DNA from: Mesostigma viride
Lineage: Eukaryota; Streptophyta; Mesostigmatophyceae; Mesostigmatales; Mesostigmataceae
Assembly: GCA_009746045.1 (NCBI GenBank)
Contig: RPFO01000041.1
Coordinates: forward strand, 3,937,954 to 4,001,953
Direction: 5' to 3'
Length of the DNA: 64,000 nucleotides
The notes under the pieces were generated by a model. That model saw only the letters and a list, made by a program, of their open reading frames with translations, did no database searches and was not told the origin of the DNA. Of the stretch, positions 6,127-63,472 are shown in pieces (position 1 is the stretch's first letter; every line of letters starts with the position of its first letter). Both the position numbers and the translations under genes were made by a program.

Positions 6127-6802
6127 CTATCTAAGGTCCGACCTGTCCAGGTTACCCCCGGCTGACAGTCCTACTGTCCCCCCCCCCCCCAAATCCATAG
6201 GAACTAACCCCGAAGAAGACCCTGGCGAAAAAGCCACTGCTGGAGGGTCACGAGGGAGCGAAGAGGGTGCAGGAGCCTGATTATCATAGGGGAACCCTGA
6301 GGGTCCTGTCTGCACAGCATTCAGCCTACTAGGGGTAGCTGAGGGAATGCGTCCTGGAGTGGGACGGATAGGAGCACGCTGAGGGGTACGAGGAGGGCGA
6401 GCGTCGGGATGAGGGGGAGCACCCGAAAGGAACTTGGGGCACTCACGTTTAAGATGACCTACTTCCTTACAATGATAGCATGTGATATGAGAGACATCCA
6501 GAGCTGAAAGGTCAGTAACGCAAATGTCTAATTCTTCTACATAGGAGTTCTCCTCCTCAGGGGTAAGGCTAATGTTATTAATACGGGAACGGGTAGGAAG
6601 AGAAGGAGTGGTGAAGAAATCTGCTACTCGTAAGAGATGCTGGCGCACATGCTTGAGGGGTAGATCAGTAAAACGGTAGGCAGAGAACTGGCGCTTTACC
6701 TCACGTAATAAGGGTCTACTGAGGCCTTGTAGGAAACGAGCACGTACTTCTGCGCCCGACAAATCCCTAATTCGTACCATCTGTGCATCAAATTCTTTCA
6801 TA
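6127..6802 (-). pseudogene. Gypsy element 1 gag, C-terminal half with zinc knuckle
   Basis: Encodes the nucleocapsid end of gag: a capsid-like helical segment, then one CCHC knuckle (CYHCKEVGHLKREC) and a Pro-rich tail. The N-terminal half is at 8932-9739; SDR-1 separates them. Bridging across SDR-1 gives FREY joined to MKEF in a continuous frame. A run of thirteen G (6178-6190 on the complement) near the gag end sits at the gag-to-pol frame change and is a likely site of length mutation. Confidence 0.85.
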
Positions 6803-7143
6803 TATTTGCTGAGCTTCGCTCATTTTATATATGACGCGTGGACGGGCTCAAAGGGGACCGACCTGCCGTAGGTAGCGTAAGACTAGCGCTTGTCACGAGG
6901 GTACTGCACCGGCCGGCCCTTTTTGTGCCTAGGCTGAGTGTGGTTCCGGAGTGCAGGCCTAGGTAGCTTCTAACGTACGTCACTAGACCTTATTAGCTGC
7001 GCCAGCCGCCAGGCGTGGCGCAACTGTGATTGGCAGTCAGTACACCTTGTACCTGCGCCAGCCGGCAGGCCTGCGTGGCGCAATGTGAATGATAGTCAGT
7101 ACTTAGAGTGGTGTAGGGGACGTAGGGAGGCCTCTTTTCAGCT
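6803..7143 (+). repeat. SDR-1 A1 block
   Basis: Starts with TGAGC-TTC-GCTCA at 6810-6822, an inverted repeat around three bases. Two hairpin modules with TGCGCC/GGCGCA arms lie at 6998-7022 and 7054-7082, each followed by AGTCAGTAC. The block ends in a pyrimidine-rich CCTCTTTTCAGCT and runs directly into unique internal sequence. Confidence 0.85.
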
Positions 7144-8187
7144 TCGCAACTTGATCCCAGCATTTGCTGGCAAGGTCGGCTGGCCGCTATGGCGGCTGCG
7201 CTGAATGTAAGACGATGCTATCGGCCTCTCCGGGCGTGGAGAGGCCTGGAATAAAGGTCTTTATGTTCGCCACCCACCGTTACAGGCCACGGTAATGGTT
7301 GTTGGGTGGGGGGCTCTACGTTTTGAGTAAAATGGTGTGATTTCCGGCGCTGGGCCCACTGACGATTCCCCTCTACCCCTGGGTGCGGCAAGCGGCTTCC
7401 TGACACTGGGGAAGCTGCGATTTTAGTCGGACAACGTCAGGGAAGGAGCCATACAGGCCAGGGCCAGCGGCTACGGTGGAAAGAATCACAGGTGGAGGCG
7501 AATCTGCCTTAAACGTGGAGATGGCTAGCGCGGGGTGCCAGGGTAGCCCATAACTGCCAGGAGCCTGACAGCGGACCCGATCTTTCGGCCTGTGGCCAGA
7601 CGGGAGTTTCGGGGAGGATGCGGGGCTGGAGCGAATCTTGGTGGGAGGAGCGCGCTCTTCATCATTGCCCAGTTTTTCAGCAAAGAATGTTCGCCTGGCG
7701 GGGCTGAAATTCTTGCTGTTTTATCGCCTTGTTTTTATCCTGTATGATGCATTATAGGAAAAGCGATAAAGAGTTCGGTTCAGCCAGGGGGGCATATCTA
7801 TGCCATAAAAAATTTCCTACAACAACACAAGCCCTGGTCAGGGCCTTGGCTAAGCAGTTTCCAAGCCAGGCAACGCCTTGGTAGGGTAGAGGGCCTATCG
7901 CCACAAAGGTTTCAATGCCGGGAAATCCCAGCCTCGGGGTGGGGCTGGTGATGGGTCCTGGGCTTGTGAGAGACGGTCCGGGGGCGTAAGGCCTAATGAG
8001 CAGCCGCTGGAAACCGCCCCCCTAACGGGGGAAACGACATGGGTGCCGCCCTGCGTCCGCCGGGAAACCGTAGCGGCCACACGGGGGCGGCAGTACAGCT
8101 GTAGCAGCGTGCAGGAGGGGGGCCATGGGCGGAAAGAAAATCGGCACCAAGGTTGGCGACAGCCTTGGTGGCCAGGAAGGAGGTGTG
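7144..8187. other. SDR-1 internal region, no coding capacity recognised
   Basis: About 1 kb, GC-rich, without a frame that resembles RT, RNase H, recombinase or gag on either strand. It contains AGGTCTTTATGTTCGCCACC-like unique sequence and a direct tail into B1. The internal regions of SDR-2, SDR-3 and SDR-4 are of similar length (about 0.84-1.0 kb) and also non-coding. Confidence 0.7.
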
Positions 8188-8374
8188 GGGGCAACACCTT
8201 GTGTTCGAGTATGCTGGGCCCCCAGCATGGTGCTACAATAACCAACTTGATAATGATGTGCACTGAGTTTGAAGGTGTGGTATAGGCTGTCCGTATAAAG
8301 CCTAGCACACAAAAATGTAAAATAAATGTTTCTCTTGGTGGGAAGGAACTCCAATGGACCAAAAACAAGAAATG

Positions 8375-8715
8375 TATTTGCTGAGCTTCGCTCATTTTAT
8401 ATATGACGCGTGGACGGGCTCAAAGGGGACCGACCTGCCGTAGGTAGCGTAAGACTAGCGCTTGTCACGAGGGTACTGCACCGGCCGGCCCTTTTTGTGC
8501 CTAGGCTGAGTGTGGTTCCGGAGTGCAGGCCTAGGTAGCTTCTAACGTACGTCACTAGACCTTATTAGCTGCGCCAGCCGCCAGGCGTGGCGCAACTGTG
8601 ATTGGCAGTCAGTACACCTTGTACCTGCGCCAGCCGGCAGGCCTGCGTGGCGCAATGTGAATGATAGTCAGTACTTAGAGTGGTGTAGGGGACGTAGGGA
8701 GGCCTCTTTTCAGCT
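8375..8715 (+). repeat. SDR-1 A2 block
   Basis: Second 341-bp copy of A, overlapping the last two bases (TA) of B1 and ending at 8715 immediately before the C-rich linker. The crossover-like palindrome is at 8382-8394. Confidence 0.85.
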
Positions 8716-8742
8716 CCCACCCACCCACCCACGCTGCTAAGA
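8716..8742 (+). other. SDR-1 A2/B2 linker: G-quadruplex/i-motif
   Basis: Reads CCCACCCACCCACCC then ACGCTGCTAAGA. The complement is four GGG runs with single-base loops, a canonical intramolecular G-quadruplex. It is absent from the A1/internal border and the B1/A2 border. Confidence 0.8.
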
Positions 8743-8931
8743 GGGGCAACACCTTGTGTTCGAGTATGCTGGGCCCCCAGCATGGTGCTACAATAACCAA
8801 CTTGATAATGATGTGCACTGAGTTTGAAGGTGTGGTATAGGCTGTCCGTATAAAGCCTAGCACACAAAAATGTAAAATAAATGTTTCTCTTGGTGGGAAG
8901 GAACTCCAATGGACCAAAAACAAGAAATGTA

Positions 8932-10023
8932 TTCCCTAAACGATTTAGTACCCTGCTGCAAAGTACCAAAGGCTAATCTATCCTGCCAATCTGCATCAGG
9001 AGGAACTAAATGGTTCTCTAAACGCTTAATTAAACAATTCTGCTACTGAGTTAGGGTAGGCATGAGAGGCCAAGGATTCACACTGGATGAGATTAGCAAG
9101 CTCAGGGGTAATACAGGTAGTAAGATAGTGAGGGACTAATACAGCATCAGAGAGACGCCATCTATTATGATTTTGCCACGACTCTGTGTTCTGGGTAAGC
9201 AACACAATAAAAGTGAAAAACTGTTGAGGAGTAGACTTGACATCCAGCTTGGGTAGGTTAGCAAAGAGGGGAAGAGCAGGGGGCTTAGGGGGGTTGGAAG
9301 GGTCAGATTTACCCATAGGACCACTGTCTTCCACTGCTACATACGAGGGATAGAAAGAAGGAAGAGGAAAGGTTTTGGATAGGGGTCTAGAAGGGGCCAC
9401 CGTTTCAGGATGGTGCCCATAGGAGAAGGGAACAGTATATTGCTCACGAAGGGAGGAGTAGGCAAAATGATCATAATTTCTGTCATCTAGAGGCATGGTG
9501 CTGAAATCACTATTAACTTCTAAATCAGCCACACGGGTAGGGACCTGGGCAGCCTCGTAGGCCGTATCAGGGTAGGACCAAGAAGCAGGAGGATAAAATG
9601 GAACTGCACTAGGGCGACCAGAAGGGCCAACAGGGGCAGAGGTACGACCCGTGTTATAAGCAGGAGTGGAAGGCACAGGGTGGGGAGGAGGCCTAGAAGC
9701 ATTGTCAGTGAGTGAGGACCTAATTGAGGGTTGAGCCAAGGTTGCAGGAGGGGCAGGGGCCTGGTTCAGAGTAAAAGAGGGGTCATCACTATAAATCTGA
9801 CACGTTGTTCAAAGGTAGGTGGGGTATGTGAGGGACGACGGCGACCACCAGTAACAGGAGAAGGAGGTGAGGTACGCAGATTACCTTGAGGAGTGAGATG
9901 GTGCACCGTTTCCAAGGAGTCCCGTCGGTTACCACGAGTATTGTTATTGTTATTAGTAGTATTATTATTAGTAGCAGTAGTATTGGTAGGTATAGGCGAC
10001 ATATCTCCACCCACTGGATCCAT
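8932..10023 (-). pseudogene. Gypsy element 1 gag, N-terminal half
   Basis: Begins with an Asn/Thr-rich stretch from a Met at 10023, changes frame near 9770, then runs as a Pro-rich region and a conserved capsid-like domain (NHNRWRLSDAVLVPH, CESLASHAYPNSVAELF). A further one-base shift near 9025 leads to LVPPDADWQDRLAFGTL, which aligns with gag of gypsy element 3 (LVPPDAVIHERLAFGKL). At least two frameshifts make this copy non-functional. SDR-1 begins at its 3' side on this strand. Confidence 0.8.
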
Positions 10024-10107
10024 GTTTAATTAATTAAAGGAAAGAAAACAACAAAAGTTGCCTTAAGAAAGGAATAGGAATCTAAATTGAAGCAATACAG
10101 GCAAAAG

Positions 10108-11950
10108 GAATCGGGGTTCTTTGAACGGAGTTTCTTCTATACGTGAATGCGGGAACAAGAGGCCGCTGGATGAGCGGCTTATAGGTCGTAGTGTTTTCTC
10201 GTAGTTGTTTGGCTAGAGCTTTTGTGGTTAGTAGATGCAGTATAGTGCATGGTTGAAAAATGAATTAAATAAAATGTGCGTTCCGCGCTTGGGTTGATTA
10301 TACCCGGGCGGAACGGGGCGTGAGGTGCAGTGCCCCTGAAAAGAACAACCTACGCATTATTAAATACTAGCCGTGCAGATTCGGGATATTCTACCCCCGG
10401 TCTGTACGGTTAGCGTCTTACTAGCATCACTGAACATAAGGGTTTAATGACGTCAGTTAGCTAGGGATAAGGGAGGTTTTGCGACTAAAAGCCGCTCTGG
10501 CTGGTTTTGTCGGCCTCTTTCTTTGCTCGTTGTCGTTGCGGCGGCAGCCGCAGCTATGGGTGCTGCGGAGCAAAATCCCAAAGCACTGGTTGCACCGGCC
10601 ACTTGGCCAGTGGTGAGACTTCCAGTTGTTAACCGGCCAGGCGTAGTTCCTTGCCCGGTTAACTAAAAGAAAAGAAAATGATTACCTCCGGTCCGCACCT
10701 TTTCCCCAGCTTGGGGTCTTTGGTGGGCCGGGTGCCGTGACAGGTGCTCAACTGTCGCTTGGTCGGCCCAGTGCGCGAGCTGGTGCTCCGTACCTGGGGA
10801 TGCTTGCACCCCGGGTTGGAGCCGGATGGCTGGCACTGGCGACCCGTGTCTCGGTCCGCGGCCTGAGGCTTTTTCTTCGGAATTTGCTGCTGGCCAGCAA
10901 ACTTTGCAATTGCCTTCCGCCGAGGGGGGGTGGTTGGGGCTGGGGACGGCGATGGGAAAAGCGCCTAAGCTAGAAATTTTTTCCCCACGCATAGAAACCT
11001 CGGGGGGGAATGCGGTCTTGGCTGAACGGACTCTCGTTCAGCCAGGTGCCTGGGGCTGTGGCCTCGGGCATCCGGGCTGGCGGGGCCTGGGCTAGGTCCA
11101 CGTTTTTTCTCGAAGCACCCCGGGTCTATGGGGAGACGGCCATAGCGGTACCGACTCGGGGCCCCGAGAGGGGTCATGATAGGCTGGCCGTGCGCAATCG
11201 CAGTGCAAATGCGCTGGGCCTTTTTGGGCCTGGCCATGCATCCACAGCCGCCGGGCACACGCCTCCCGATGTGGGGGGGCTCCCGTTTTGCGGCAGGGCG
11301 GTCACTTGTGACAACGAGCAAGGTGGAGTGCGGCTTCAAGGGAAAGCCAGGGCGGGGGTGATTGGGCAATGTACTTCATGAAGGGCCTTGAACGGCATGC
11401 CTCCGGGCATGTCAATAGTGTCACATGTATGCTTCCACTTATTGTTTTAATGAAGATGCTGGTTTTTGTGGGAGCTACGTGGGACATGAATCGGGGTTCT
11501 TTGAACGGAGTTTCTTCTATACGTGAATGCGGGAACAAGAGGCCGCTGGATGAGCGGCTTATAGGTCGTAGTGTTTTCTCGTAGTTGTTTGGCTAGAGCT
11601 TTTGTGATTAGTAGATGCAGTATAGTGCATGGTTGAAAAATGAATTAAATAAAATGTGCGTTCCGCGCTTGGGTTGATTATACCCGGGCGGAACGGGGCG
11701 TGAGGTGCAGTGCCCCTGAAAAGAACAACCTACGCATTATTAAATACTAGCCGTGCAGATTCGGGATATTCTACCCCCGGTCTGTACGGTTAGCGTCTTA
11801 CTAGCATCACTGAACATAAGGGTTTAATGACGTCAGTTAGCTAGGGATAAGGGAGGTTTTGCGACTAAAAGCCGCTCTGGCTGGTTTTGTCGGCCTCTTT
11901 CTTTGCTCCCCACCCACCCACCCTTGTCTTGGTTGCCTCTAGGGCAACGT
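10108..11950 (+). mobile_element. SDR-2: split-direct-repeat element in gypsy 1 leader
   Basis: A1 10108-10528 and A2 11488-11908 are 421-bp copies differing at about one base (GTGGTTAG against GTGATTAG). The internal region plus B1 occupies 10529-11487; B1 probably starts near 11364 and holds TTATTGTTTTAATGAAGATG, related to B of SDR-3 and SDR-4. After A2 comes the linker CCCACCCACCCACCC and TTGTCTTGGTTGCCTCTAG. B2 is almost absent: only about nine bases (GGGCAAYGT) match before the sequence diverges, so the 3' end is truncated or rearranged. The A start GTTC-TTT-GAAC is the three-base-spaced palindrome. The insertion lies between the viroplasmin-like ORF and gag of gypsy element 1. Confidence 0.8.
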
Positions 11951-23338: not shown

Positions 23339-25471
23339 TTATGACACTTGAGCTCCCAAGAAAACCAGCATTTGATTGAAAACAATGAGTAGAGCCCCTG
23401 CCAAAGGCACTAGTCATCTCGTCTCCCTCGCATGCAGGAGCAAGAGCCCCCCAAGGGTGGGATGGGTGGGAAGAAACAATTACGGGTCACAACCCGCCGA
23501 CCATGCTTATCAAGCCTACCGTCAAAATGGAAAACGGCAAAACCAGAAATATCCTAACGCTGACAATTTAATAATTCAGCCAGCCAGCTCATCTGTCACA
23601 CGTCTGAGCTGTCAGGCCATGTGTACTCTTCGAATGCAACCCTGAACACACTACCCAACCAAGCAGCACACCAATCAATTGGTGAGTGCTGGTTACATCA
23701 GATTTTATTACAGCTTTTTGACGCAACTTCCGTCAGCATTCCACACATGGCCGGCCGTTCAAACAAACGGCGCCTGACTTACAAAAGGCAAAGCTAGTTG
23801 CCAGTAGGATTCCCCGGTAAACAACAAGTCGTCCCCATTCGTCTAACAAGCCTCTCTGCATGTACAGCCACAAGGTTGTGGCGGCCCTTTCTTTCCCGCA
23901 TTCTGTTTAATAAACTATTTTCAGAGAAATCCGATTATGACACTTGAGCTCCCAAGAAAACCAGCATTTGATTGAAAACAATGAGTAGAGCCCCTGCCAA
24001 AGGCAGGTTTAAGTAGTCATCTCGTCTCCCTCGCATGCAGGAGCAAGAGCCCCCCGATCCACCCCAGTCCCTGGCGCCATTGCCCTCCTCCCCCGCACTG
24101 TCGCCGTTCAGGAAACAAAACTTGATAGGATCACTGTTGCCCCAATAACAGTGAACAAAGAAAAGAAGAAGAATCCCCCCCCTCTTCCAGGCAGCCTCGA
24201 GGGTAGCCGCTTCCATAAAAAGACCACAAAGTGGGGCGTGTCGCAACATCTCCTTCATGGCGACTCAGCCCGCACAAGGCTATAATAACCCCCTAAGGGG
24301 CCCGACGATAAAAGGTTAGCGAATCCGCGGAGCCGCCTCAGCAAAATATTATTCCAGATAAAAACCCAGAAAATTCGCATTCCGACGCCACCAGGGTTTG
24401 AACCGCTACCTGCCGGGTGCTGAGCAGGGAGAGACGACAAGGCCAGGCACTGCCACTGCCAGCCGAGACGCCTTTCCGATACTCGGTTCCTTTTGTGGGA
24501 ATTTTGCAAATATATTTTCTTCCGGAACGCAAGAAACTAGCCGGCCGCGCGTCACCCTTATATCCCTCGCTGGCCCATAACAAAAAAGGGCCGCGCACCA
24601 AGCCGAAGGCAGCGCCATGCAGCGCCCTAGGCTGTGGGCCGCTGACTGACTACCAGCGCAGTCTCATGGAATCCAAATTAATCTATTGACCTTCGCACAG
24701 TTTCCGCATTAGCTGCGGACTTCTTAGTCGACGTGATTGGCTCCGCTGCTGGAATTACCAGCAGCCGGGGCGGGGCGCCCAGCCCACTTTCTATGACCAC
24801 CGAGACGCTGCCCAGCAAGGTGCCAACCAGAACCACTTGGCACATTGGTAACGCGAAATTTCCGTTCCGTTCAAACCGCCCCTACCTGCCGTGAAGTCGC
24901 AAAGCCCGCGACTTCATAGCAGGCAAGGACAGGGTCTTTGCCTAATTTTCTTTAGCCCCGCCGCCATAGCAGCGAGGCCGCTCATACTGCTTCAGTGAGC
25001 ACATTCAAAGAAACAATTACGGGTCACAACCCGCCGACCATGCTTATCAAGCCTACCGTCAAAATGGAAAACGGCAAAACCAGAAATATCCTAACGCTGA
25101 CAATTTAATAATTCAGCCAGCCAGCTCATCTGTCACACGTCTGAGCTGTCAGGCCATGTGTACTCTTCGAATGCAACCCTGAACACACTACCCAACCAAG
25201 CAGCACACCAATCAATTGGTGAGTGCTGGTTACATCAGATTTTATTACAGCTTTTTGACGCAACTTCCGTCAGCATTCCACACATGGCCGGCCGTTCAAA
25301 CAAACGGCGCCTGACTTACAAAAGGCAAAGCTAGTTGCCAGTAGGATTCCCCGGTAAACAACAAGTCGTCCCCATTCGTCTAACAAGCCTCTCTGCATGT
25401 ACAGCCACAAGGTTGTGGCGGCCCTTTCTTTCCCGCATTCTGTTTAATAAACTATTTTCAGAGAAATCCGA
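23339..25471 (-). mobile_element. SDR-4: split-direct-repeat element in the Penelope-like RT
   Basis: On the minus strand: A1 25471-25008 (464 bp), internal 25007-24056, B1 24055-23935, A2 23934-23471 (464 bp), linker 23470-23453, B2 23452-23339. B2 lacks seven bases present in B1. A starts TCGGATTTCTCTGAAAATAG, with TTTC-TCT-GAAA as the three-base-spaced palindrome, and is similar to the A starts of SDR-2 and SDR-3. B ends with TTGTTTTCAATCAAATGCTGG, shared in part with SDR-2 and SDR-3. A contains the hairpin GCCACAACCTTGTGGC. No coding capacity is recognised. Confidence 0.85.
23453..23470 (-). other. SDR-4 A2/B2 linker: G-quadruplex/i-motif
   Basis: Plus strand GGGTGGGATGGGTGGG, four GGG runs; element sense is CCCACCCATCCCACCC. 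The position is the same as in the other elements. Confidence 0.75.
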
Positions 25472-25977
25472 ATAAGCATCCCGCACGATAGCACCTGCCG
25501 CAATCCCTGAGAGCCACGTTGCCGTGGGCTTAATTGGTCTGAGAAACACGCACGTGCTGGTGGTTGCGCCCGTGAGGCCTACGTGCATACAGACGAGTAA
25601 GGAGGGTATAATATACATGGGCAAACGGCTTGCTGTTCAAACGCGTTTGTCACATTAGAACCCATCATAAATGCGACACAATGGCCGACAAAACTGATAA
25701 GGCCAAATGGAACGCACTGTTTTCGGGCAGCGGGGCAGCGTCCGGTCCAGCAAAAAGCAGAAACGAGACACCACAGGCGAGAAGGCAGGTGCATGGCAAG
25801 GGCAAGCTGTCAAACCAGCAACGCTACACTATACTTTTCGTCCGAGGGTGGTAAAAAGCATCCGAGGCGTAAATAACCAGGTGGTAAATTACGGCTCAGA
25901 CTACTACTTAGATATACTTCTCGGGAAGTATCCAATCCGTAAAATTACTACTTAGATCCCAGGTACGATCCAAACGG
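25472..25977. other. Flank of SDR-4, possible Penelope N-terminal remnant
   Basis: A minus-strand frame here (LRPIKPTATWLSG, IVRDAY) leads into the SDR-4 boundary and could be the upstream continuation of the Penelope-like RT, but the motif match is weak. No other gene is seen. Confidence 0.35.
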
Positions 25978-28138: not shown

Positions 28139-28391
28139 AGAAACTGATGAGCTGCGCGTAAACGTTAACTGGAGTCACCTACGCATGGTGAAGACGTGAA
28201 TGCGCACTTTCAAATTTCGCGTGCACTCCTGGTGCACTGTCAAATTTCGCGTACACACTAGGTTGCAGCCATCCGACGGCTACAACCCCAGTGGTCAGCT
28301 TCAAACCAAACATCGCACGGTACACGTTCTTGCGGCATCGCTGTCAGGTCACCCTAGTACGCAGCAACCCGCTGTTATACTGGCGGCAGTT

Positions 28392-28745
28392 GTGTACCAC
28401 CTGTACGGTATTTGTGTACCACCCCCCTCCTTCCCACGGCAGGTACGCAGCGCCCGGCTGTTGTCCTGTACGGTATTTGTGTACCACCTGTACGGTATTT
28501 GTGTACCACCCCCCTCCTTCCCACGGCAGGTACGCAGCGACCCGCTGTTGTCCTGGCTGCAGTTGTGTACCACCTGTACGGTATTTGTACCACCCCCCTC
28601 CTTCCCACGGCAGGTACGCAGCGACTCGCTGTTGTCCTGGCTGCAGTTGTGTACCACCTGTACGGTATTTGTGTACCACCCCCCTCCTTCCCACGGCAGG
28701 TACGCAGCGCCCCGCTGTTGTCCTGGCTGCAGTTGTGTACCACCT
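28392..28745 (+). repeat. Left inverted-repeat arm
   Basis: Four units, each with TACGGTATTTGTGTACCACC then CCCTCCTTCCCACGGCAGG and CTGTTGTCCTG. The outermost unit uses the CCCGGCTGTTGTCCTGTACGG variant, as does the outermost unit of the right arm. Confidence 0.85.
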
Positions 28746-32940: not shown

Positions 32941-33450
32941 CCTATTTAAATGTTTTTCTGTATTCATATACGTGGTAAGGGAACGACCCATTAGGAAATT
33001 ATCTGAGACTTTGCAATTGAAGTCAGACAACTATGCTCCATGTACACTGCATGATACACCTGGATATCAAATATTACAGAACTTGGTTAAGGTTTCTTTC
33101 CATCACTCCGAGGGCTCCTGATCTGTGGCTCGCCAATGGGAGCACGAGTTTAAGTAATTGATATGACCTTTTGTGGATGCCCTACCTAACGCGAAGGCAT
33201 GATCATCTTACCATGCTGCCAGTGAGCAGTTTAATTGAACCTGGGGCCAGGCTTTTTAAGGCAACGAGACAAGTGGGGCGTCATATTAATAGGTTAATTA
33301 ATTAATTAATTAATGAGGAACATCACTCCGTTGGGAGTCAATGGAGCACATATCCCTGAGAAGGGGCATATGGCTTTTAAGACATCCTAGGCTACTTCAT
33401 GCAAGGGTGGTTACTTCATGCAAGGTTAAACTCGTGCTCCCTTTCTGCTT
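32941..33450. other. 510 bp without a gene
   Basis: Includes a (TTAA/TAAT)n stretch at 33290-33314 and no supported frame. It separates the 92-bp array from the large microsatellite. Confidence 0.5.
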
Positions 33451-34650
33451 GATGGATGGATGGATGGATGGATGGATGGATGGATGGATGGATGGATGGA
33501 TGGATGGATGGATGGATGGATGGATGGATGGATGGATGGATGGATGGATGGATGGATGGATGGATGGATGGATGGATGGATGGATGGATGGATGGATGGA
33601 TGGATGGATGGATGGATGGATGGATGGATGGATGGATGGATGGATGGATGGATATGGATGGATGGATGGATGGATGGATGGATGGATGGATGGATGGATG
33701 GATGGATGGATGGATGGATGGATGGATGGATGGATGGATGGATGGATGGATGGATGGATGGATGGATGGATGGATGGATGGATGGATGGATGGATGGATG
33801 GATGGATGGATGGATGGATGGATGGATATGGATGGATGGATGGATGGATGGATGGATGGAGGGAGGGAGGGAGGGAGGGAGGGAGGGAGGGAGGGAGGGA
33901 GGGAGGGAGGGAGGGAGGAGGGAGGGAGGGAGGGAGGGAGGGAGGGAGGGAGGGAGGGAGGGAGGGAGGGAGGGAGGGAGGGAGGAGGGAGGGAGGGAGG
34001 GAGGGAGGGAGGGAGGGAGGGAGGGAGGGAGGGAGGGAGGGAGGAGGGAGGAGGAGGGAGGGAGGGAGGAGGGAGGAGGAGGGAGGGAGGGAGGGAGGGA
34101 GGAGGGAGGGAGGGAGGGAGGGAGGAGGGAGGGAGGGAGGGAGGGAGGAGGGAGGGAGGGAGGAGGAGGGAGGGAGGAGGGAGGAGGGAGGGAGGGAGGG
34201 AGGGAGGAGGGAGGGAGGGAGGGAGGGAGGGAGGGAGGGAGGGAGGGAGGAGGAGGGAGGAGGGAGGGAGGGAGGGAGGGAGGGAGGGAGGGAGGGAGGG
34301 AGGGAGGAGGGAGGGAGGGAGGGAGGGAGGAGGAGGGAGGGAGGGAGGGAGGAGGGAGGGAGGGAGGGAGGGAGGGAGGGAGGGAGGGAGGAGGGAGGGA
34401 GGGAGGGAGGGAGGGAGGGAGGGATGGATGGATGGATGTGGATGGATGGATGGATGGATGCATGGATGGGTGGGTGGGTGGGTGGGTGGTGGTGGGTGGT
34501 GGGTGGGTGGTGGGTGGGTGGGTGGGTGGGTGGTGGGTGGGTGGGTGGGTGGGTGGGTGTGTGGTGGGTGGGTGGTGGGTGGGTGGGTGGGTGGGTGGGT
34601 GGTGGGTGGGTGGGTGGGTGGGTGGGTGGGTGGGTGGGTGGGTGGGTGGT
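33451..34650 (+). repeat. 1.2-kb compound microsatellite
   Basis: (GGAT)n from 33451 to about 33860 with two GGATAT interruptions, then (GGGA)n with GGA interruptions to about 34423, then GGAT again, then (GGGT)n with GGT interruptions to about 34650. The related tetranucleotides in series suggest stepwise motif mutation. All frames through it ([20 protein letters not shown] repeats) are artefacts. Confidence 0.97.
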
Positions 34651-34657
34651 GGACTAC

Positions 34658-35710
34658 TTACACAATCACTGGGCAAACGCTATCTGCGAGACCCTGGTTG
34701 CCCAATCGCCTTGCCGTGCTGATGCCCTTGAAAAAAATGCGGCGATTTTCCACCTGGTACGCGGCACCACCAGCATGCACATGTGCTCCATGCCATAAGA
34801 CAACATCACCAGGATTGAGCATCACCTCAGTTTTTCCCTCCCCCCTGTTGGAGATGTCTTTCTTCCTATAATGTCGGATACTATTGTCGTACGAAACCCA
34901 ACGTGTGTCGGGTTGTACAGCGATGATGCAACTTACTGGGAAGTATACCTCCCATGCCAAAACTTCACGTGTAAGATCGGAATGGGGCCCTTGTTCTTTG
35001 CACTTGGCCCGGCTTCGGAGCACCAGCAACTCACGTGGCTTAGGCACGTAGGACATGTCCAGCGCAGCATGCAGGATCTTGACCGCCAATCCCACGACGA
35101 GCTTCCCAAACGGGCTGTCTTCGTCGATAAGGGCTTGGCTACGTTGCTTTGGAGGGAATGTATACGTCTTGGTGTTCTCGTTGTACAGACGAAAAATTCT
35201 GTCAAATTCAGTATCCGGAATGTCTTGCGCAGCAGTCAGCATCTGCACGCGTACTTCCTCGCTTACGATGCCTCGTATGACAGTGTATCCCCTCTCCCTG
35301 ATATCCGCCGCACACTTCTTTTGTAAAGGGGTTTCGGCAATGTTCCTCTCACGCAATGCCACGTTTTCAATCGCCTTTTCCCCGGCATTCTTCCGGTTGC
35401 CCACACGGTGGTTCTCTTCGGCTTTCAATGCGGCGGGCGTTTTTTTCTTGGCAGGAACCTTCTTGGCCGCCGCCCGCCTTGCTTTTTGCCTTTCCGCCTG
35501 CTGCTTCCTATATGCCAGCAATCCACCAGCCCTCTTGATAGCAGCTTTCTGGTCGATGTCGCGCCACCTGTTTGCCTTCATAATTTTGGCTTGCATCTTC
35601 TTCATGGCTTTGCACACCTTGGCGACTTCCTGCTCACTTGCCAAGTCGGATTCCAACATTACTACAGATTCCATCATAGACCGGCAAAGAACAACAGGGT
35701 TCAAAAGCAA
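34658..35710 (-). CDS. 2-oxoglutarate/Fe(II)-dependent dioxygenase carried by the TIR transposon
   Basis: An intact 350-residue frame (first Met not certain; Met12 or Met13 possible). Residues 30-120 are Lys/Arg/Ala-rich and would suit nucleic-acid binding or nuclear import. Residues about 140-330 form a double-stranded beta-helix oxygenase: [13 protein letters not shown] at the entry, GPHSDLT with the iron ligands His243-x-Asp245, [17 protein letters not shown] with the distal His (310 or 312), and ENRRIFFKG with the Arg (323/324) expected to bind 2-oxoglutarate. The layout is PhyH- or TET/JBP-like at the motif level; the substrate is unknown. It lies just inside the right inverted repeat, opposite in direction to the transposase. 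Dioxygenases linked to DNA transposons are known from other eukaryotes; a role in nucleic-acid modification here is inference. Confidence 0.75.
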
Positions 35711-35811
35711 CCGATAATATGTAAAGGCTATATCGATCAGGAGGACTTCCGCCGTGCAGCGACAGCTATACCAACCTTGAGGACAACATTGACACTATTA
35801 ATTTACGAGCT

Positions 35812-36152
35812 GCCAGGACAACAGCGGGTCGCAGCGTACCTGCCGTGGGAAGGAGGGGGGTGGTACACAAATACCGTACAGGTGGTACACAACTGCAGCC
35901 AGGACAACAGCGAGTCGCTGCGTACCTGCCGTGGGAAGGAGGGGGGTGGTACACAAATACCGTACAGGTGGTACACAACTGCAGCCAGGACAACAGCGAG
36001 TCGCTGCGTACCTGCCGTGGGAAGGAGGGGGGTGGTACACAAACACGTCCGTACAGGTGGTACACAAATACCGTACAGGACAACAGCCGGGCGCTGCGTA
36101 CCTGCCGTGGGAAGGAGGGGGGTGGTACACAAATACCGTACAGGTGGTACAC
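35812..36152 (-). repeat. Right inverted-repeat arm
   Basis: Reverse complement of the left arm, four units. One unit has ACACGTCC in place of ATACC. Unit variants follow the same outer-to-inner order as on the left. Confidence 0.85.
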
Positions 36153-37459: not shown

Positions 37460-37880
37460 GTAGGCGACTGTGTGATTGCTTGTTGCATGCAGCATGTTGA
37501 CGACAATCTTTATTTGCATATGGGAACAGCGCGTTGATTACTTATTCATATGTGACAGCAAAATGTGGCCTGTGCTTTCTCTCCCTGCTGGTGGATGGAA
37601 TGTTAGGCACAGCACATGCGAATATCGGCTGTCCTCTTTGCTGATACTGCATGAATGACTCAATGCGTAACCCGCTTTCTCTCAGCACTCAATCTGTGGC
37701 ACGAGTGGGGTGAGGGGGGGCGGCATCGGACCAGATGCTGAAGAGATGTAGAAGCAAACAGATGGGAGGGGAAGCCAAAGTTACAGTTGCAAGGAGACGT
37801 GTCCAAGGGGGGGGGGGGCAGAGAATTGGAATTGAGTAGGAGGACAGCCAGATGGTATGGGCAACAGGACGGAAAGAATG

Positions 37881-39036: not shown

Positions 39037-39058
39037 GTCCGCACGCACAGGGGGCTTT

Positions 39059-44354: not shown

Positions 44355-44837
44355 AGTTGGTTGGAGACCCATCTAGGGTCCACATGGGTCCTCAGAGATA
44401 GAGGATCTTGTACAGATTACTACAATATACTTTATTGTAGTATTGGACCAATGGCTGTACTTCACTAGTACTTGCCAATGGGATAACGCCACATAGAATG
44501 TGTGGGCGTCTCCCTGGCCTCCACGTCACCGGTTGGTCTAGGGCCGGTGTAGTCCTGTCAAGAGGACTGAGCCGACTATCGTCCAATCATGTGCGCATCC
44601 ATGCCTTGGAACCTTCTAGAGGATTCTAGAAGTATCTAACACGCGGCATGCACTGAACTACATAGAATGCATGTCCACGTAGGATATTCAGCAAGACTGA
44701 TGAAGGTACCAAGCGCAACAGGTTCATATGCGCAACGAAGACGAATTATGTAACAACAGCAATAACGTATGAGAACAATAAAGAGAACGTTCATTCCATG
44801 CTTTCTGATTTACATCGCATTCCATTTATTTGCAACT
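44355..44837 (+). repeat. 5' LTR of the copia-like element
   Basis: 483 bp, begins AGTTGGTTGGAGACCC and ends TTTGCAACT. AATAAAGAGAACG near the end may be the poly(A) signal. Confidence 0.93.
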
Positions 44838-56900: not shown

Positions 56901-57708
56901 CATGCACACTGTTCACGAATGATTCCACGTGCAGGTAAGGCAAACTAACCATTGCCGTGACATTGATGTATCAAGGAGACAACATGGATGTTCATACTGT
57001 ACCTAAGTCCAGAGCGAAGATTGTGAACAAGCATTTCCAAAAGTCACTAGTGCAAGCAAAATTTAAACCTATTCAACTCAATTAGAGTGCGCACAACCAG
57101 GTATTAAGTCTATCTGCCAATGCACTAAGACCGTCTTTCCAAGAGCTCTCCTCCCCCCCTATCAGATCATAGCGCCCACGCTATATGGGATGCACGAAGG
57201 TGTCCCAAGAGTATTGGCTAGGCCGGGAAGGATGTGGAGGCGCATGAATCCATGGGAGGGATAGATAGCGGACCCGAGCAAGGTTGGCCATAGTTAGCAT
57301 CGCGCGGTGAGGAAAACGAGATTCCTAGTTGGGTAATGCTTCAGAAGAGATCCAAGTCATGGATGTGACGGGTGGCATCTGAAAACTGCGGGTACAAGGG
57401 TCATTGATGTGACAGGTTGCAGCTGAAAACTGCAAGTACAAGGGTCATTGGTTTGGTAGGTTGCCATGCCCGGGCTATAGGACCGGTCACTGTTACAATA
57501 CAAGCATCCGGGGGTTCATGTACCATATCCTCACACTCATAACGGGCTATCATGAGAAGGAAGAATGGTACCACCCACATCAACATTAAGAGTCTCTGTG
57601 CCCGACTTGGGGTACATGTCCAAGCAGGAGAGGTGTCAAACACGGTATATATGGTATTATTATGCTAGCAAAACTGCTAGCGAGGGCGGCCTTTAGGAAG
57701 GAATGTAA
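53932..57708. other. 3.8 kb without a recognisable gene
   Basis: Starts with TGTAACATCCTAGCCCCGGC, which looks like the first bases of a plant-type LTR abutting the gag fragment; no second copy is seen. AAATGTGAAAGATCTTTTCC at about 53980 resembles a stretch of the gypsy element 2 LTR (21346). Many short frames exist but none shows a domain, codon continuity or splice structure I can defend. A poly(A) run lies at 55008-55016. Confidence 0.5.
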
Positions 57709-59493
57709 AATCGGTGTTCTCTGAACGTAGTTTCTTTATAACAGATGAGAATGAACGCCGCTATGTGAGTGGTACTACGGGACGGTGGGCCTTGGGCTGG
57801 ACCGGTTCCATGAGTTAGAATTAGTTGGCCAGTTTTGTATGGCCATTTCTAGTTCGTTAAGTTAAGTAGCAATTAAGTTACTGTTGCTGACGGCTCATGA
57901 GGCGAGCCCGGGCTACGCCGCCCTAAAGTGCCATTTGCACGATGTTCTAGGTCTCTTTTTCTTGTAATCGGATGTATGGGGTATGGGTATGGCGGATTAC
58001 AAGAAATTTAATGCTGCCCTAATCGCGTCAGCCTTTTGGCTGGCGGTGGCCGATTAGAGATGGCGCGTGACTGACATAGCTTGAACAGTCACGTGAAGTC
58101 CTGTGAAAAAGAAATTAAAATTACCCTCGTCGGTTTTCTCCCCGCAGCTGGGTTCTTGGCCGACGAGAGACTATAAAATACTTCGCGTTTGCCTGCGCGT
58201 GGCACCTATACGGAACTCTGAAACCATGAGTAAGATTTCCGTGCCACGCTGCAGTGCCTACCGCTTTGCTGCGGAATGTCGCAGCAGGGTTGCAGTTCCT
58301 GACTGCTGACTGCCGAAGGAAGGGTGGTCGGGTTACTTTTAGTGGGCATTGTGATGGACGACAAGTCTGTCGGCCCTCGCGTAAGTAGAAAAATATTTAC
58401 CAGCATCCGCTCTTATGGGTGCGTGAGGTCTCGGGAATGTGGTGGGGACGAATTCCGGAATTATGCAATATTTCGATTCAGACCGAGACTTAAGGGGCCA
58501 GTTTAACAGACGGACCTGGGCCGGGCAGGACCAAATATTTTGGCCGGCCCAGTTGCGCTTGCGCTTTATCGGCCGCTGGGGTGTGTGATGAGAGCCTGCT
58601 CATCAACTAAAACCTGAAATATGGAAAGTTACTCCCCAGGTGACAACGTTGACAGTAATCGAGATATGGTGGCATCGGGTGACGTCCTACAAGTTGTCGT
58701 CACGTTAGGGCGGCACTGGCCTTTGAGGGAGGTCCGTGATCGTTAAACGAGGCGTCTTCTTCCTTGTCTTTGCGTGCACATTCAACACCCTCTTTTACTG
58801 GCCGAGGGTGGAAGGCTGGGGGGGCCCTGCGAAGGGTTATCGTGCATGAGGCTCGCTACAGCCGCCGGCGATTGTAATGGTCGTGACCGTTGCGGCAGGG
58901 CAGCCTCGAGAGCCACTGAGCGAAAGTGGTTGGCGGAGCTTTGGAGATAAAGCACCAGGAAAGGGGGGTTGGGTAACGAGAACTACAATCAATCATGAAA
59001 TGGGTGCAGCGTGGCAGGCTCACTCATGGGTTCTGTAATTGCCCACTTATTGTTTTAATCAAATGTTGGTGCATTGGTAATAGTGGGAATAGAATCGGTG
59101 TTCTCTGAACGTAGTTTCTTTATAACAGATGAGAATGAACGCCGCTATGTGAGTGGTACTACGGGACGGTGGGCCTTGGGCTGGACCGGTTCCATGAGTT
59201 AGAATTAGTTGGCCAGTTTTGTATGGCCATTTCTAGTTAGCAATTAAGTTACTGTTGCTGACGGCTCATGAGGCGAGCCCGGGCTACGCCGCCCTAAAGT
59301 GCCATTTGCACGATGTTCTAGGTCTCTTTTTCTTGTCCCCCCCCCCCTCCCTCTTCTTGTGTTTGTTTCTAGGGTAACGAGAACTACAATAAATCATGAA
59401 ATGGGTGCAGCGTGGCAGGCTCACTCATGGGTTCTGTAATTGCCCACTTATTGTTTTAATCAAATGTTGGTGGATTGGTAATAGTGGGAATAG
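57709..59493 (+). mobile_element. SDR-3: split-direct-repeat element
   Basis: A1 57709-57965 (257 bp), internal 57966-58970, B1 58971-59092 (122 bp), A2 59093-59336 (244 bp), linker 59337-59371, B2 59372-59493 (122 bp). A2 lacks 13 bases present in A1 (TTCGTTAAGTTAAGTAGC region). A starts with GTTC-TCT-GAAC. B1 and B2 differ at very few positions (CAATCAATC/CAATAAATC, GCATTGG/GGATTGG). No target duplication: only AA is shared at the outer and inner junctions. The internal region has no recognisable coding capacity. Confidence 0.85.
59337..59371 (+). other. SDR-3 A2/B2 linker: C-run and acceptor-like tail
   Basis: Eleven C, then TCCCTCTTCTTGTGTTTGTT and TCTAG directly before B2 (GGGTAACG). 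The complement is a G11 run able to form a G-quadruplex. The tail resembles a polypyrimidine tract with a 3' splice site. Confidence 0.7.
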
Positions 59494-59527
59494 AACGAAA
59501 CATTTATTAAGCATCCATGAAACATTC

Positions 59528-59725
59528 AATCCATTTCTGGCCTTGCCTTGCTTTGCATGCATCACCACAAAACATCAAATTTATTACAATATGTGTGCTA
59601 GCTCTATACGGTGGAATAACACAGACATGTCTACCAGATGGCAACACGGCCATCTGTATGCTAGGGTGAGCACACTATGTGAATGTGCAGGGCCAGCCCA
59701 CAGCAGCTGTGCCCCTGCTCTACCC
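59528..59725 (-). repeat. B2 of the DIRS-like element
   Basis: 198 bp, same as 59956-60153. Contains GTAATAAATTTGATG, a poly(A)-signal-like site near the A2-proximal end. Confidence 0.85.
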
Positions 59726-59752
59726 CTTTTGCCAGGGTGGGTGGGTGGGAGG
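59726..59752 (-). other. A2/B2 linker of the DIRS-like element: G-quadruplex/i-motif
   Basis: Plus strand GGGTGGGTGGGTGGG followed by AGG; element sense CCCACCCACCCACCC, identical to SDR-1 and SDR-2. Confidence 0.8.
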
Positions 59753-59955
59753 CAAAAGAAACAACCTGCTTCCCTAGAATGGAAGCCCACCCTTTATAGC
59801 AACCACCTCTCCAGCCAACCCCTACCTGGGTGGCTGGGGTACGGGTGCCAGCACAAAAAATATTTTTTCTAAAATTATTTTTTCTTTTGGTGCTATACGG
59901 CGTTGCATTCTCCGCTCAGCAGGTTAGTCATAGATAAAATGAGCATAGCTCACCA
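59753..59955 (-). repeat. A2 of the DIRS-like element
   Basis: Begins on the minus strand with TGAGC-TAT-GCTCA (59952-59940). Its pair A1 is outside the window, so the extent is inferred from position between B1 and the linker. Confidence 0.65.
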
Positions 59956-60153
59956 AATCCATTTCTGGCCTTGCCTTGCTTTGCATGCATCACCACAAAA
60001 CATCAAATTTATTACAATATGTGTGCTAGCTCTATACGGTGGAATAACACAGACATGTCTACCAGATGGCAACACGGCCATCTGTATGCTAGGGTGAGCA
60101 CACTATGTGAATGTGCAGGGCCAGCCCACAGCAGCTGTGCCCCTGCTCTACCC
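59956..60153 (-). repeat. B1 of the DIRS-like element
   Basis: 198 bp, identical by eye to B2. Directly follows the recombinase end region in element orientation. Confidence 0.85.
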
Positions 60154-60348
60154 ACATCTCCTTACATGGCTAACAGCCGAAAATACGTAGGACATGCAAA
60201 AAAGAAAACTTAAACTACCTAGCTATGGGGGTACTTTGTCCCAACCCAGGTTCACCCTCGGGTTAGTTAAACCATTTCCCCCCTGACCTCCCACACAAGG
60301 GTGAGGTCAGTTGATAGCTAAAAGACGAGAGATAAAAACAGGAGGACG

Positions 60349-61280
60349 TCAAAACTCGACGCCACCGAAGTGGCGCCGGAAAGCCGCTGGGTCAAAACCC
60401 AGGGCCTGAGCCCAGAGGGCGGGTGGGATGTCGCGCCCCAGGAGGCTGCGGTGGAGGCCAATGTAGCGCGTGACCGAGAGGGCCGAAGCCCACCGGCCGC
60501 GCAGCTGGATGGCCTCCGGCGACTCGCCAGCGATGGCGTCGTGCGTCGCCCCCCCATGCCGGAGGCTGTGAAAAGAAAACATCCCTGGGATGCCCATGCG
60601 GGCCTGCACAGCCTCCCACTGCTGCCTAGCCTGGCTGTACGTTAAGCCCGAAAGAGGAGTGCATCCGGGGGCTGGCCAGCCGTCAGACGTCGCAGGAGCC
60701 ACAAAGAAAGTGGATCCCGGACGAGGACGTGCTGGGCCGCCCCCTGCGCAGTTTTGGGGTTGCGCAGCACAAGGGCACCGACCATGGGCCCTGGCTCGAG
60801 AAGGGGGTGGCCGGGATGAGCCACATCCCGAACCCGCAGCCCTAGCGCCTCGCTAATGCGTAAATACTGCTGGAAAGCAATAATAATCAACGCACTCAAA
60901 TGCACCTGTCGACGTGAAACTAGCAACAGGGCAGTGAAATAGCAAAGGCGCCAGGGCATAGGCGGAGGGCTGACAGCCGGAACAAGCCGCTGCCAACCTG
61001 CTAGCAGGCGGTCCGCCAGTACCCAATTCCGAACAATGTCGGGGTAGTACAGGTGCAGACAGGCCTTGGCATGCTGGCATAAGGTACGCCCCCGCCCGCC
61101 TCTGGCATGGTAGACAGCAGAAATCCACTCACAGAAAATGGCTTCCGCGTCAGCTGGGTCGACAGGGCCAGGTGGCGCCCACGCCACGTAGACAGCCGCC
61201 GCACGCCGGTACGCTGGCAAGGTAGACACAGGGTTGACTGTGCCCTCCAAAAGTGCCAAGTCCCGAGGGCGTCGCGCCCC
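60349..61280 (-). pseudogene. Tyrosine recombinase of the DIRS-like element
   Basis: N-terminal SAM-like helical region (CQHAKACLHLYYPDIVRNWV), first catalytic Arg in QYLRISEALGLRVRDV (near 60859), candidate Lys in LRNPKTAQG. A frame change near 60655 leads to FSFHSLRHGGATHDAIAGES (His-x-x-Arg, near 60565) and LRGRWASALSVTRYIG (Trp and nucleophile Tyr near 60465). The R-K-HxxR-W/H-Y set is complete across two frames. The family integrates circular cDNA without target duplication. One frameshift separates the halves. Confidence 0.88.
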
Positions 61281-61283
61281 CTC

Positions 61284-61310
61284 AGGCCCAGGGTTGGGAT
61301 GCACGTCACC
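61284..61310 (-). other. 2A-like GDVHPNPGP motif between RNase H and recombinase
   Basis: Residues CGDVHPNPGPEG lie exactly between the last RNase H motif (HNPADKASRRG) and the recombinase. The NPGP core matches 2A ribosome-skipping peptides; the usual Glu two residues before Asn is His here. If active it would release the recombinase from RT-RNase H. Confidence 0.55.
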
Positions 61311-62103
61311 ACACCGGGTCAAGTCAGGAATCCAAGCGCCACGCCGACTGGCCTTGTCAGCTGGGTTGTGGTCGGTAGCCACCCAGACCCAGTGGCTCTG
61401 CATGTCGCCAGCCAGTGACAGAGCGCAGTAGCGCCGAACCAGCTGGTTGAGGCGGTAGGAAGACGACCGCCCTCTGACAAACGCCCCCACCACAGCACTG
61501 GAGTCTACGAGCCGGACGACTCGCTTACCTCGACACGCCTTGGTCCGGCACGACCACTCGACCCCCTGTGTCGCAGCAATCGCCTCCTTGACGTTGATGT
61601 GGTTAGGCTGCCCCCGCCACCGGTAGGACAGTGCCGTACGCCAGTGGCCACTATCCAGCAGGCTGTAGTCCCCCTCCTCCATGCGCTCCAGGTCCCAGTC
61701 CTCCCCAGACGTTAAAGCTGTCGTCCGCCACCCCCGCGCTTCGCGCCGGGTCGCCAGCCGGGCACAATCGGCCCCAGGCAGGTCCCTGTAGACCACCCCA
61801 CCGCCGGAGCCGCTCGCATCACTTGCGACGACCCGGTCAGAAAGGGGCCGGGCCCTGGCCGCCCTCAAAAAGGGGGCCAGGTCGATCGCCGCCTGAAGCT
61901 CCTGGCGGGCCCCCGCAGGGAGGCGCCAGCGGCGCCCAGGCAGGGAGGCATTCATGGCTGCTAGCAGCCGGTACGTCTCAGACCACACCGAAAGCATGGG
62001 GCGGCACAGCAGATGCATCCACACCCACTTCCCAAGCACAGAACTAAGTTCGCGGTAGTATGTAAACCCGCGATCTAAGATTCTATGAGTAGCGCGATAA
62101 CTG
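61311..62103 (-). CDS. RT thumb/connection and RNase H of the DIRS-like element
   Basis: Continues from RT with ILDRGFTYYREL, LGKWVWMHLLCRPMLSVWSE, typical of the DIRS RT-to-RNase H connector. RNase H motifs: VVASDASGSGGGVVY (Asp), NHINVKEAIAA (Glu), VRLVDSSAVVG (Asp), ATDHNPADKASRR (Asp). The reading frame is open through to the recombinase; the listed first codon is not a start because this is part of a polyprotein. Confidence 0.85.
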
Positions 62104-63300
62104 CCACCACACGCTCAGGAACAGGCACCACGTCACCATCTCTTTGGTGAATGACCCCACCGCCTGCACACCAGTCTGCTCTGCTGTCGCCCGTACCACC
62201 TTGTCAGACTTCTGCACCAGCCCAACAGCGGCGTAGGCAGCCTGAACACGATCTAGCTGCTGATTCACCCCATCCACCGACGCACAGTGGGTGAAATGGA
62301 GGTCATCGATCGTCACAGCATGCATACCTTCCAGATCCTGCCGAGATTCGAAGCACGGCGAGGGCGCCAAGGGCGCAGCAGGGTCCTCCTCCAGCCTCAG
62401 CCGGACGGTCTCCCCCGCCTCGTTGGCCTCCGCCACCAGGATCAGCGCGGACATGTTGATGCTCAGCCCACGACTAGCCTCCAACGGCGGCTTGGGGCCA
62501 CAGCGGTACAACACAGACTGATGCACACACTGGGCCACGGCGACGGCCAGCTTGTTGCCCATTGGCCAGCACAACATCCACGGCCACACCTTCCGACGAG
62601 CCCCACTCAGGCCCACCAGATCCGACCACACCGGCATCCACGCACAGTACCGCCGCATCCAAACTGGCAGGCGGAGTCTGTTGTAGTACGAATCCAAATC
62701 TGATACGCCCCCAAAAACATCCTCCCCAGCGCGCGTGGGCAAATCGCAAATCACGCCAAGGTGTGGTAAAAAAGCGGGCATAGGATCTGGTAGTGGCATG
62801 TTGCCACGCCGGTTGTCCACAATCAGCCGTATACGGCCGTCGGGCTTTCCGACCCCAAAAGTACCGTTCACCATAGGCGGCTCCTCCTCAAAAAATCCAC
62901 CCAAAATCCCCCTCTCCACACACACCGTGCAAACCCGCGCGAACTCCTCCATGCTACACCCCCGCGAGATCCGCATCGACTTCTGCAAGATCCGCTCTGC
63001 TGGGCTCAGCGTCCGTACCATCCTACTCTCATCATTCAAAATTGCTCCCCAAGAGGGGGGTAGTAAGTTCAGCACATCCACTTGGCCACCTTCCCCCGGA
63101 CCAGGCAAGGCCAAGCGTGCGGCCACTAACGGTTCGTAAGGGGCTCCTTCAGCATATTCACCCCCATCCACTACAGATCCTGCCATTGCCGCTACGGAAC
63201 CACCGTTCCGGCGGACAAAGGACCTGCAAGCATCATCGATCCCATCTAGGGCCGCCTGCTGCAGAGGCCCGGGCACACGGGCTGAATCTACAGCAGGCGG
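62083..63300 (-). CDS. Reverse transcriptase of the DIRS-like element
   Basis: Nearly 400 open residues. N-terminal region (ALDGIDDACRSFVRR), then FGVGKPDGRIRLIVDNRRGN, SDLDSYYNRLRLPVWM (catalytic Asp of motif A), WPMGNKLAVAVAQ (motif B) and HAVTIDDLHFTHC (catalytic Asp pair of motif C), followed by GLVQKSDKVVRAT. The order and spacing match DIRS/Ngaro RTs rather than gypsy. The frame is lost near 62090 and resumes in the next frame. A run of ten G (63309-63318, C on plus) lies just upstream, at the change from the gag frame. Confidence 0.85.
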   Translation of the reverse strand, partial: PPAVDSARVPGPLQQAALDGIDDACRSFVRRNGGSVAAMAGSVVDGGEYAEGAPYEPLVAARLALPGPGEGGQVDVLNLLPPSWGAILNDESRMVRTLSPAERILQKSMRISRGCSMEEFARVCTVCVERGILGGFFEEEPPMVNGTFGVGKPDGRIRLIVDNRRGNMPLPDPMPAFLPHLGVICDLPTRAGEDVFGGVSDLDSYYNRLRLPVWMRRYCAWMPVWSDLVGLSGARRKVWPWMLCWPMGNKLAVAVAQCVHQSVLYRCGPKPPLEASRGLSINMSALILVAEANEAGETVRLRLEEDPAAPLAPSPCFESRQDLEGMHAVTIDDLHFTHCASVDGVNQQLDRVQAAYAAVGLVQKSDKVVRATAEQTGVQAVGSFTKEMVTWCLFLSVWWQLSRYS

Positions 63301-63472
63301 GTCTCGCCCCCCCCCCCCATCCAGTTTAACGCCCTAACCGTCTGACAGGCTAGTGTGCGAGCATTAAAAGCCCGACTCATCCTATCGCGCCTACGGCCTG
63401 AGCGTACCTGCTGCCACCAGTCACGAGGTGGCAGGGGTGCTGGAAGAGGTAGTGGAAGAAGGCACCGCTCCC

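Follow-up and report, generated by a model that had tools for sequence, protein, structure and literature searches.

A conserved C-run linker at the exact A2/B2 border of split-direct-repeat retrotransposons in Mesostigma viride

A 64,000-nucleotide stretch of the genome of Mesostigma viride (contig RPFO01000041.1, termed C1579 here, positions 3937954-4001953; the whole stretch is termed the window below) harbours five split-direct-repeat retroelements, E1 to E5, which self-comparison and direct reading resolve into the order A1-I-B1-A2-L-B2. Here A1/A2 and B1/B2 are the copies of two repeats, I is the internal region and L is a short linker made up of C-runs, which lies between A2 and B2 and is C-rich on the sense strand in all five elements. 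L is a real and conserved cis-element with a specific position, and it belongs to a retrotransposon type already known, the tyrosine recombinase (YR) elements with split direct repeats. A first-pass annotation, made from the letters alone, had proposed a conserved C-rich linker with quadruplex or i-motif potential at the A2/B2 junction of five elements. The linker itself is confirmed, and the stretch at 8716-8742 is indeed the one between A2 and B2 of E1. The interpretation is partly supported, in that the conserved, position- and orientation-specific linker stands while the quadruplex or i-motif is only predicted.

On the sense strand, L reads CCCACCCACCCACCC in E1, in E2 (11909-11923) and in E5 (59749-59735, minus strand), CCCACCCATCCCACCC in E3 (23470-23455, minus strand) and C11-T-CCC in E4 (59337-59351). 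The common form had thus been correctly assigned to E1, E2 and E5, whereas the supposed plain C11 linker of E4 has to be corrected to C11-T-CCC. Both strands of the window were scanned for tight four-run motifs (loops of 1-3) and at a looser setting (loops of 1-7), with the simple-repeat arrays at 1863-1924 and 33401-34800 masked and 62,538 bp left. Five tight motifs were recovered, and these are precisely the linkers of E1-E5; the looser setting added six motifs outside the arrays, three of them on the opposite strand within the E2 internal region. A search for the common 15-mer that allowed at most 2 mismatches gave 39 matches against 0.43 expected, with 31 of the 39 falling in the simple-repeat array at 34464-34650. 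The four-run motif is absent from the 4 A1/I borders and the 5 B1/A2 borders of the window, in line with the claim that it follows neither A1 nor B1.

Placement of the linker within the five elements

The elements extend over 6800-8933 (E1, plus strand), from 10108 (E2, plus), over 25474-23339 (E3, minus), over 57706-59495 (E4, plus) and, on the minus strand, from outside the window down to 59528 (E5). Their parts are as follows.

6800..7143, plus: E1 A1, from self-comparison
8172..8187, plus: E1 CCAGG block before B1, putatively like a polypurine tract (PPT)
8188..8371, plus: E1 B1
8372..8715, plus: E1 A2
8716..8742, plus: E1 linker, CCCACCCACCCACCC plus 12 nt, exactly filling the gap between A2 and B2
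8743..8933, plus: E1 B2
10108..10528, plus: E2 A1
11347..11363, plus: E2 CCAGG block before B1 (putative)
11364..11487, plus: E2 B1, left border placed at GGGCAATG
11488..11908, plus: E2 A2
11909..11941, plus: E2 linker, with no intact B2 after it
25008..25474, minus: E3 A1
24056..24074, minus: E3 CCAGG block before B1 (putative)
23938..24055, minus: E3 B1
23471..23937, minus: E3 A2
23453..23470, minus: E3 linker CCCACCCATCCCACCCTT
23339..23452, minus: E3 B2
57706..57965, plus: E4 A1
58955..58970, plus: E4 CCAGG block before B1 (putative)
58971..59089, plus: E4 B1
59090..59336, plus: E4 A2
59337..59371, plus: E4 linker, C11-T-CCC plus 20 nt
59372..59495, plus: E4 B2
60154..60169, minus: E5 CCATG block before B1 (putative)
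59956..60153, minus: E5 B1
59750..59955, minus: E5 A2
59726..59749, minus: E5 linker, CCCACCCACCCACCC plus 9 nt
59528..59725, minus: E5 B2
60349..63333, minus: E5 frames, reverse transcriptase (RT) and RNase H (by eye), followed by the tyrosine recombinase

The A1 of E5 lies about 0.64 kb outside the window and is directly followed by GAGAACC, and by eye only about 8 nt directly after the E2 linker resemble E2 B1. The onset of the first C-run coincides with the end of A1/A2 identity (offset 0) in E1, E4 and E5 by script, and in E3 by direct reading, the script value of -16 in this element having come from an earlier CCC; in E2 the offset is -1, one C being common to A1 and A2. At the other end, the last C-run and B2 are separated by 2 to 33 nt across seven families (the five of the window and two further families, X and YZ), so that it is A2, not B2, that positions L.

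The first 29 nt of A are common to E1 and E5 and the first 34-58 nt to E2, E3 and E4, with 27-37 nt of B likewise common within each of these groups. Between the two groups, none of 6 A2 pairs and none of 4 tested B1 pairs scores above shuffles. The earlier description of A and B as unrelated is too strong, given these common parts within the groups. This bears on the notion that L is a microsatellite-like remnant without function. Spacers that change readily, and the departure of E3 and E4 from the common form, are what such a remnant might display, but L is kept in all seven families though A and B are unalignable between the groups, and the masked window holds no tight motif apart from the linkers. 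We consider this explanation very improbable.

The linker in genomic copies and in two further families

Counts beyond the window refer to the 440-Mb assembly containing it. A search with the E5 protein frame listed 87 loci (87 scored of 2,245 candidates), 82 of which match the B1-A2-L-B2 segment, 64 of them in full; 63 of these 64 could be parsed. Their linkers comprise 37 instances of CCCACCCGCCCACCC, 21 of CCCACCCACCCACCC and 5 others, and four canonical runs are kept in 60 of the 63. From 40 fetched A1 regions 33 were parsed, and in every one A1 is directly followed by GAGAACCT(C/G). The first-pass annotation had named an equal frequency of the motif at A1 borders as evidence that would tell against it; the motif follows A1 in 0/4 window elements, 0/33 E5 copies and 0/14 pairs of the YZ family described below. 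The tails of A1 and A2 are the same in 32 of the 33 copies, and all 13 copies that have a T insertion in the A2 tail have it in A1 as well.

Six distinct linker changes separate 62 E5 copies from one, five on the three spacer A's and one on the twelve C's (P = 0.0016 under uniform change). This is suggestive of C-runs that are mostly kept while the spacers drift, and it is no more than suggestive because A's might likewise be lost or converted preferentially through slippage. As a whole L is not ultra-conserved, distinct changes per site amounting to 0.40 in the linker versus 0.15 in A2 and 0.18 in B2. Hypermutation of the linker was considered and rejected, as 37 of 43 E5 linker events are a single A-to-G change common to one subfamily. 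Genome-wide there are 291 E5-type linkers (up to 3 mismatches) and none in the reversed control, and the E1 linker is identical in all 11 copies examined, the window copy included, from 40 listed.

Two other features of the E5 copies deserve record. Changes per site per copy, in 60 copies picked with the E5 protein frame and with window 60153-59528 as reference, are 0.0008 before B1, 0.0005 in B1, 0.0049 in A2 and 0.0037 in B2, with A1 also high; the rate steps up at the B1|A2 recombination site even though B1 and B2 are one sequence, and one explanation would be mosaic copies arising by YR exchange at B|A. Furthermore, pairs of E5-type linkers stand 435 bp apart at C1549:43002/43437 and 44589/45024, where one B-A-L unit measures 428 nt, and these may possibly be tandem B-A-L units or small circles.

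The families X and YZ of the host genome were reached via P0003, a relative found through the E5 protein regardless of the linker. Here CCCACCCACCCACCC stands at the A2/B2 border in all three junctions read, one of X (L264 and L267) and two of YZ (L265, L266). The exact YZ tail-plus-linker has 54 matches (reversed control 0). The linker comes next at 19 of 40 places with the YZ A-tail (40 scored of 129 candidates). Among 16 neighbouring pairs, two with a linker upstream only were excluded, their downstream member being the A1 of the next pair; of the remaining 14 A1/A2 pairs, 13 have the exact linker after A2, none has it after A1 and one has it in neither position. Likewise, an exact tail-plus-linker lies 666-812 nt downstream of 24 of the 35 places with a YZ-type YR, and no exact match accompanies the remaining 11.

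The genomic distribution of these relatives was also recorded. Elements with a P0003-type YR form one cluster per contig, tens to about 170 kb long, in many large contigs (C1579:2619508-2734369, C1480:2260802-2368685, C1391:754352-832590, C1835:787188-852391, C1757:1174245-1251708, C2133:2698152-2868529 and others), in contrast to the dispersed E5 type. These clusters are candidate centromeres, by analogy with what the portion of the literature available to us describes for DIRS-1 of Dictyostelium (PMC5633606).

Relationships of the elements and their surroundings

E5 looks like an autonomous element, its Gag region lying mostly outside the window. Two Mesostigma viride proteins of EukProt (jgi/Mesvir1) match its RNase H/YR frame with 100% identity over 59% and 38% of the length of the frame. 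PF00589 is detected on an E5 frame with E 1.9e-4 and 21.7 bits, below the curated cut-off of 27.1, and on the relative P0004 with E values down to 4.4e-6. No Pfam RT match was obtained for E5 or its relatives, the latter giving only sub-threshold hits to RVT_3 and DNA_pol_viral_C; the RT and RNase H motifs were recognised by eye. The sole match to the E5 RT frame was the host's own protein, and no relatives outside the host were found for the E5 frame in viral and genome contigs or for P0006 in viral contigs. Among the matches listed from viral contigs, 6 of 131 tested 15-mer instances had a repeated 20-mer close upstream; applied to the window, the same script recovered the A1 partner in all four testable elements (E1-E4), besides picking up short C-runs within a simple repeat and within the repeat pair at 39-41 kb. 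The right insertion flanks differ beyond a common ATGTATT (E1) or GGAT (E5), and the left flanks of 5 E5 copies differ upstream of TTGGT.

Between the RNase H-like part and the YR, E5 carries the sequence GDVHPNPGP (within 62114-60642, minus strand), and the relatives P0003, P0004 and P0006 have GDVESNPGP, GDVEANPGP and GDVETNPGP at the same spot. We take this to be a 2A-like ribosome-skipping motif (DxExNPGP).

The window elements possess the split direct repeats of DIRS-order YR retrotransposons, E2 doing so without an intact B2. Their layout is that of the Ngaro and VIPER elements, A1-[ORFs]-B1A2B2 with the internal repeats after the YR, as given in the sections available of their descriptions (PMC4157794, PMC8547959); in E5 the YR frame ends at 60349 and B1 starts at 60153. 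A precedent for a unique A2-B2 linker is provided by SIRE of Trypanosoma cruzi, which the accessible portion of its account presents as composed of A2, B2 and an exclusive internal stretch some 30 bp long (PMC6681497), and isolated AB repeats are likewise reported in the available excerpts on Ngaro. These partial descriptions of Ngaro, VIPER and SIRE contain no mention of a C-run or quadruplex linker. The PAT-like elements (Pat1, TOC3 and Kangaroo of Volvox), as far as the excerpted sources describe them, also combine split direct repeats with a YR and have algal members, like the elements of the window. The same excerpts attribute a putative methyltransferase to PAT-like elements, and no match to one was returned for the E5 frames by Pfam, which also missed the RT there. 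Kangaroo has its YR inverted relative to the RT, unlike E5, in which all frames are on the minus strand, and a zinc finger in Gag is found in Pat1 only among the PAT-like elements.

The remainder of the window is rich in other repeats. E1 and E2 (6800-11950) are nested in a minus-strand element with frames of Ty3/gypsy type by eye, and 44355-51941 is a long terminal repeat (LTR) element, copia-type by eye, whose frames resemble Gag, integrase and RT. LTR retroelements are described as abundant in the part available of the Mesostigma viride genome paper (PMC6947507). The region 39053-41277 contains a 670-nt direct-repeat pair without split structure, adjoined by a long array of 30-nt tandem repeats at 37773-39034, and arrays of an approximately 86-nt repeat, mutually inverted and about 7 kb apart, occupy 28357-28745 and 35809-36152.

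A predicted cDNA quadruplex and its possible role in replication

The strand of the linker is set by the E5 frames, which run in the direction that makes it C-rich; the G-rich strand is therefore first-strand cDNA, as the first-pass annotation had held. Predictions that used RNA parameters as a stand-in place a quadruplex on first-strand cDNA in all seven families and on the sense strand in none. The sense RNA being C-rich in all seven, L might alternatively be bound by a protein serving in the packaging, export or protection of the genomic RNA, a view with which the greater importance of C-runs over spacers would also agree. For an RNA motif, however, an exact start where A ends would not be required, and we find this alternative rather improbable.

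A circle made by joining B2 to A1 would, by deduction, read (BA)-I-(BA)-L, that is, an LTR-like pair of BA units with L at the seam. L could then be left over from a primer, or from C-tailing at the plus-strand 3' end, and joined to B. It begins at the A border and is present only at the (BA)-(BA) seam, and the C11-T-CCC of E4 resembles tailing. Conversely, the identical 15-mer in E1, E2, E5, X and YZ and the inherited A-to-G variant in 37 of the 63 E5 copies point to templated inheritance, which leaves such an origin with little likelihood.

Two further segments stand out at the borders. Immediately before B1, the final 24 nt of I have a mean local score of 15.8 across the five elements, exceeding the maximum of 14.3 in 3,000 random sets, and the last 24 nt of A score 14.4 against a random maximum of 13.2; the first 24 nt of I (four elements) score 7.3 and show no excess, a fraction of 0.9955 of 2,000 sets being equally high. 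The block before B1 was first noticed by eye and then tested. It contains CCA(G/T)G 15-19 nt upstream of B1 in all seven families, of which X and YZ are independent of the five elements that suggested it. The end of A is pyrimidine-rich in all seven families, and E5 has TATAAAG 49 nt before it. An RNA hairpin at the junction was rejected as a general explanation, the folds being no better than those of shuffles (z -0.13 to 0.61; 0.34); the linker is flanked by the arms of an 8-bp stem in E5 and of an imperfect stem in E1, and by eye such arms are missing from E3 and E4.

The pyrimidine-rich tail of A, together with the TATAAAG of E5, points to a possible RNA start within the final 10-20 nt of A. 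If A is a promoter and A2 its second copy, a G-rich template after the A2 start might pause or silence the polymerase, sparing B2 and the host DNA. This proposal fits the exact placement of L after A2 just as well, and the pyrimidine-rich end of A and the position of TATAAAG speak for it, but RNA derived from A1 must itself traverse L to get to B2, and the conserved block before B1 is left unaccounted for. We regard it as unlikely.

We tentatively prefer a role of L in reverse transcription, at what we judge to be appreciably less than an even chance: the predicted cDNA quadruplex would halt plus-strand strong-stop DNA at the end of A2 and so permit second-strand transfer, with BA acting as the LTR and L as the seam. 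In the replication of LTR elements, plus-strand strong-stop DNA is ended by the tRNA-primer block. In the Mesostigma viride elements, an RNA starting near the end of A would have as its 5' end a short tail of A, r, which is present again where A2 ends. The plus strand would be primed at the CCA(G/T)G block in front of B1, and strong-stop DNA starting there would copy B and then A. A (GGGT)3GGG quadruplex in the minus-strand cDNA would halt synthesis at the end of A2, leaving r as the 3' end. This r would pair with r' at the minus-strand 3' end, the copy of the RNA 5' end, and extension after this second-strand transfer would rebuild A1. The quadruplex would thereby play the part of the tRNA-primer block, and such a halt would account for the presence of L after A2 only, for its start at the repeat border, for the cDNA strand being the G-rich one and for the likeness of A1 and A2 up to L.

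Several observations weigh against this scenario. The plus strand must later cross L for the circle to be completed, and the transcriptional alternative predicts the same placement of L. Purines make up only 62-75% of the block before B1, a level that much of I also reaches in E2, E3 and E5, and this weakens the interpretation of the block as a PPT. A clear TATA box is present only in E5, the other elements having at least 2-3 mismatches, and leaving the quadruplex aside the junction folds no better than shuffles. Finally, 3 of the 63 E5 copies are without four canonical runs (two 14-nt forms and one with CGC), which is the kind of junction that the first-pass annotation had itself named as contrary evidence, although the other 60 keep theirs.

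Comparison with known systems bears on both the resemblance and its limits. The two-LTR circle of LTR retrotransposons and retroviruses resembles (BA)-I-(BA)-L, the block before B1 putatively standing in place of the PPT; LTR elements differ in using a DDE integrase, against the YR here, and in their tRNA primer site, none being recognised in the window elements in a search by eye. Quadruplexes in retroelements are a shared trait, being known near the central PPT of HIV-1 and, according to the available part of one study, near promoters and LTR ends of plant LTR elements (PMC3902901). The Mesostigma viride elements are distinguished from these by a single motif that sits at one precise repeat border and has its G-rich strand in the cDNA. 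In the open-licence full-text literature, to the extent that it was accessible, no quadruplex linker was found described for YR retrotransposons. The replication scheme of DIRS-1 is itself a proposal, experimentally not fully proven according to the portion of its account available (PMC5633606).

The linker at the exact repeat border and the block before B1 provide two fixed points in the replication cycle of YR retrotransposons. It is conceivable, if somewhat doubtful on present sequence evidence, that a quadruplex in the element's own first-strand cDNA replaces the tRNA-primer block and that the split direct repeats represent a pair of LTRs (BA) in rotated order, L being the seam. Should the quadruplex indeed end strong-stop DNA, this would be a new route among retroelements and would explain why the repeats break where they do.
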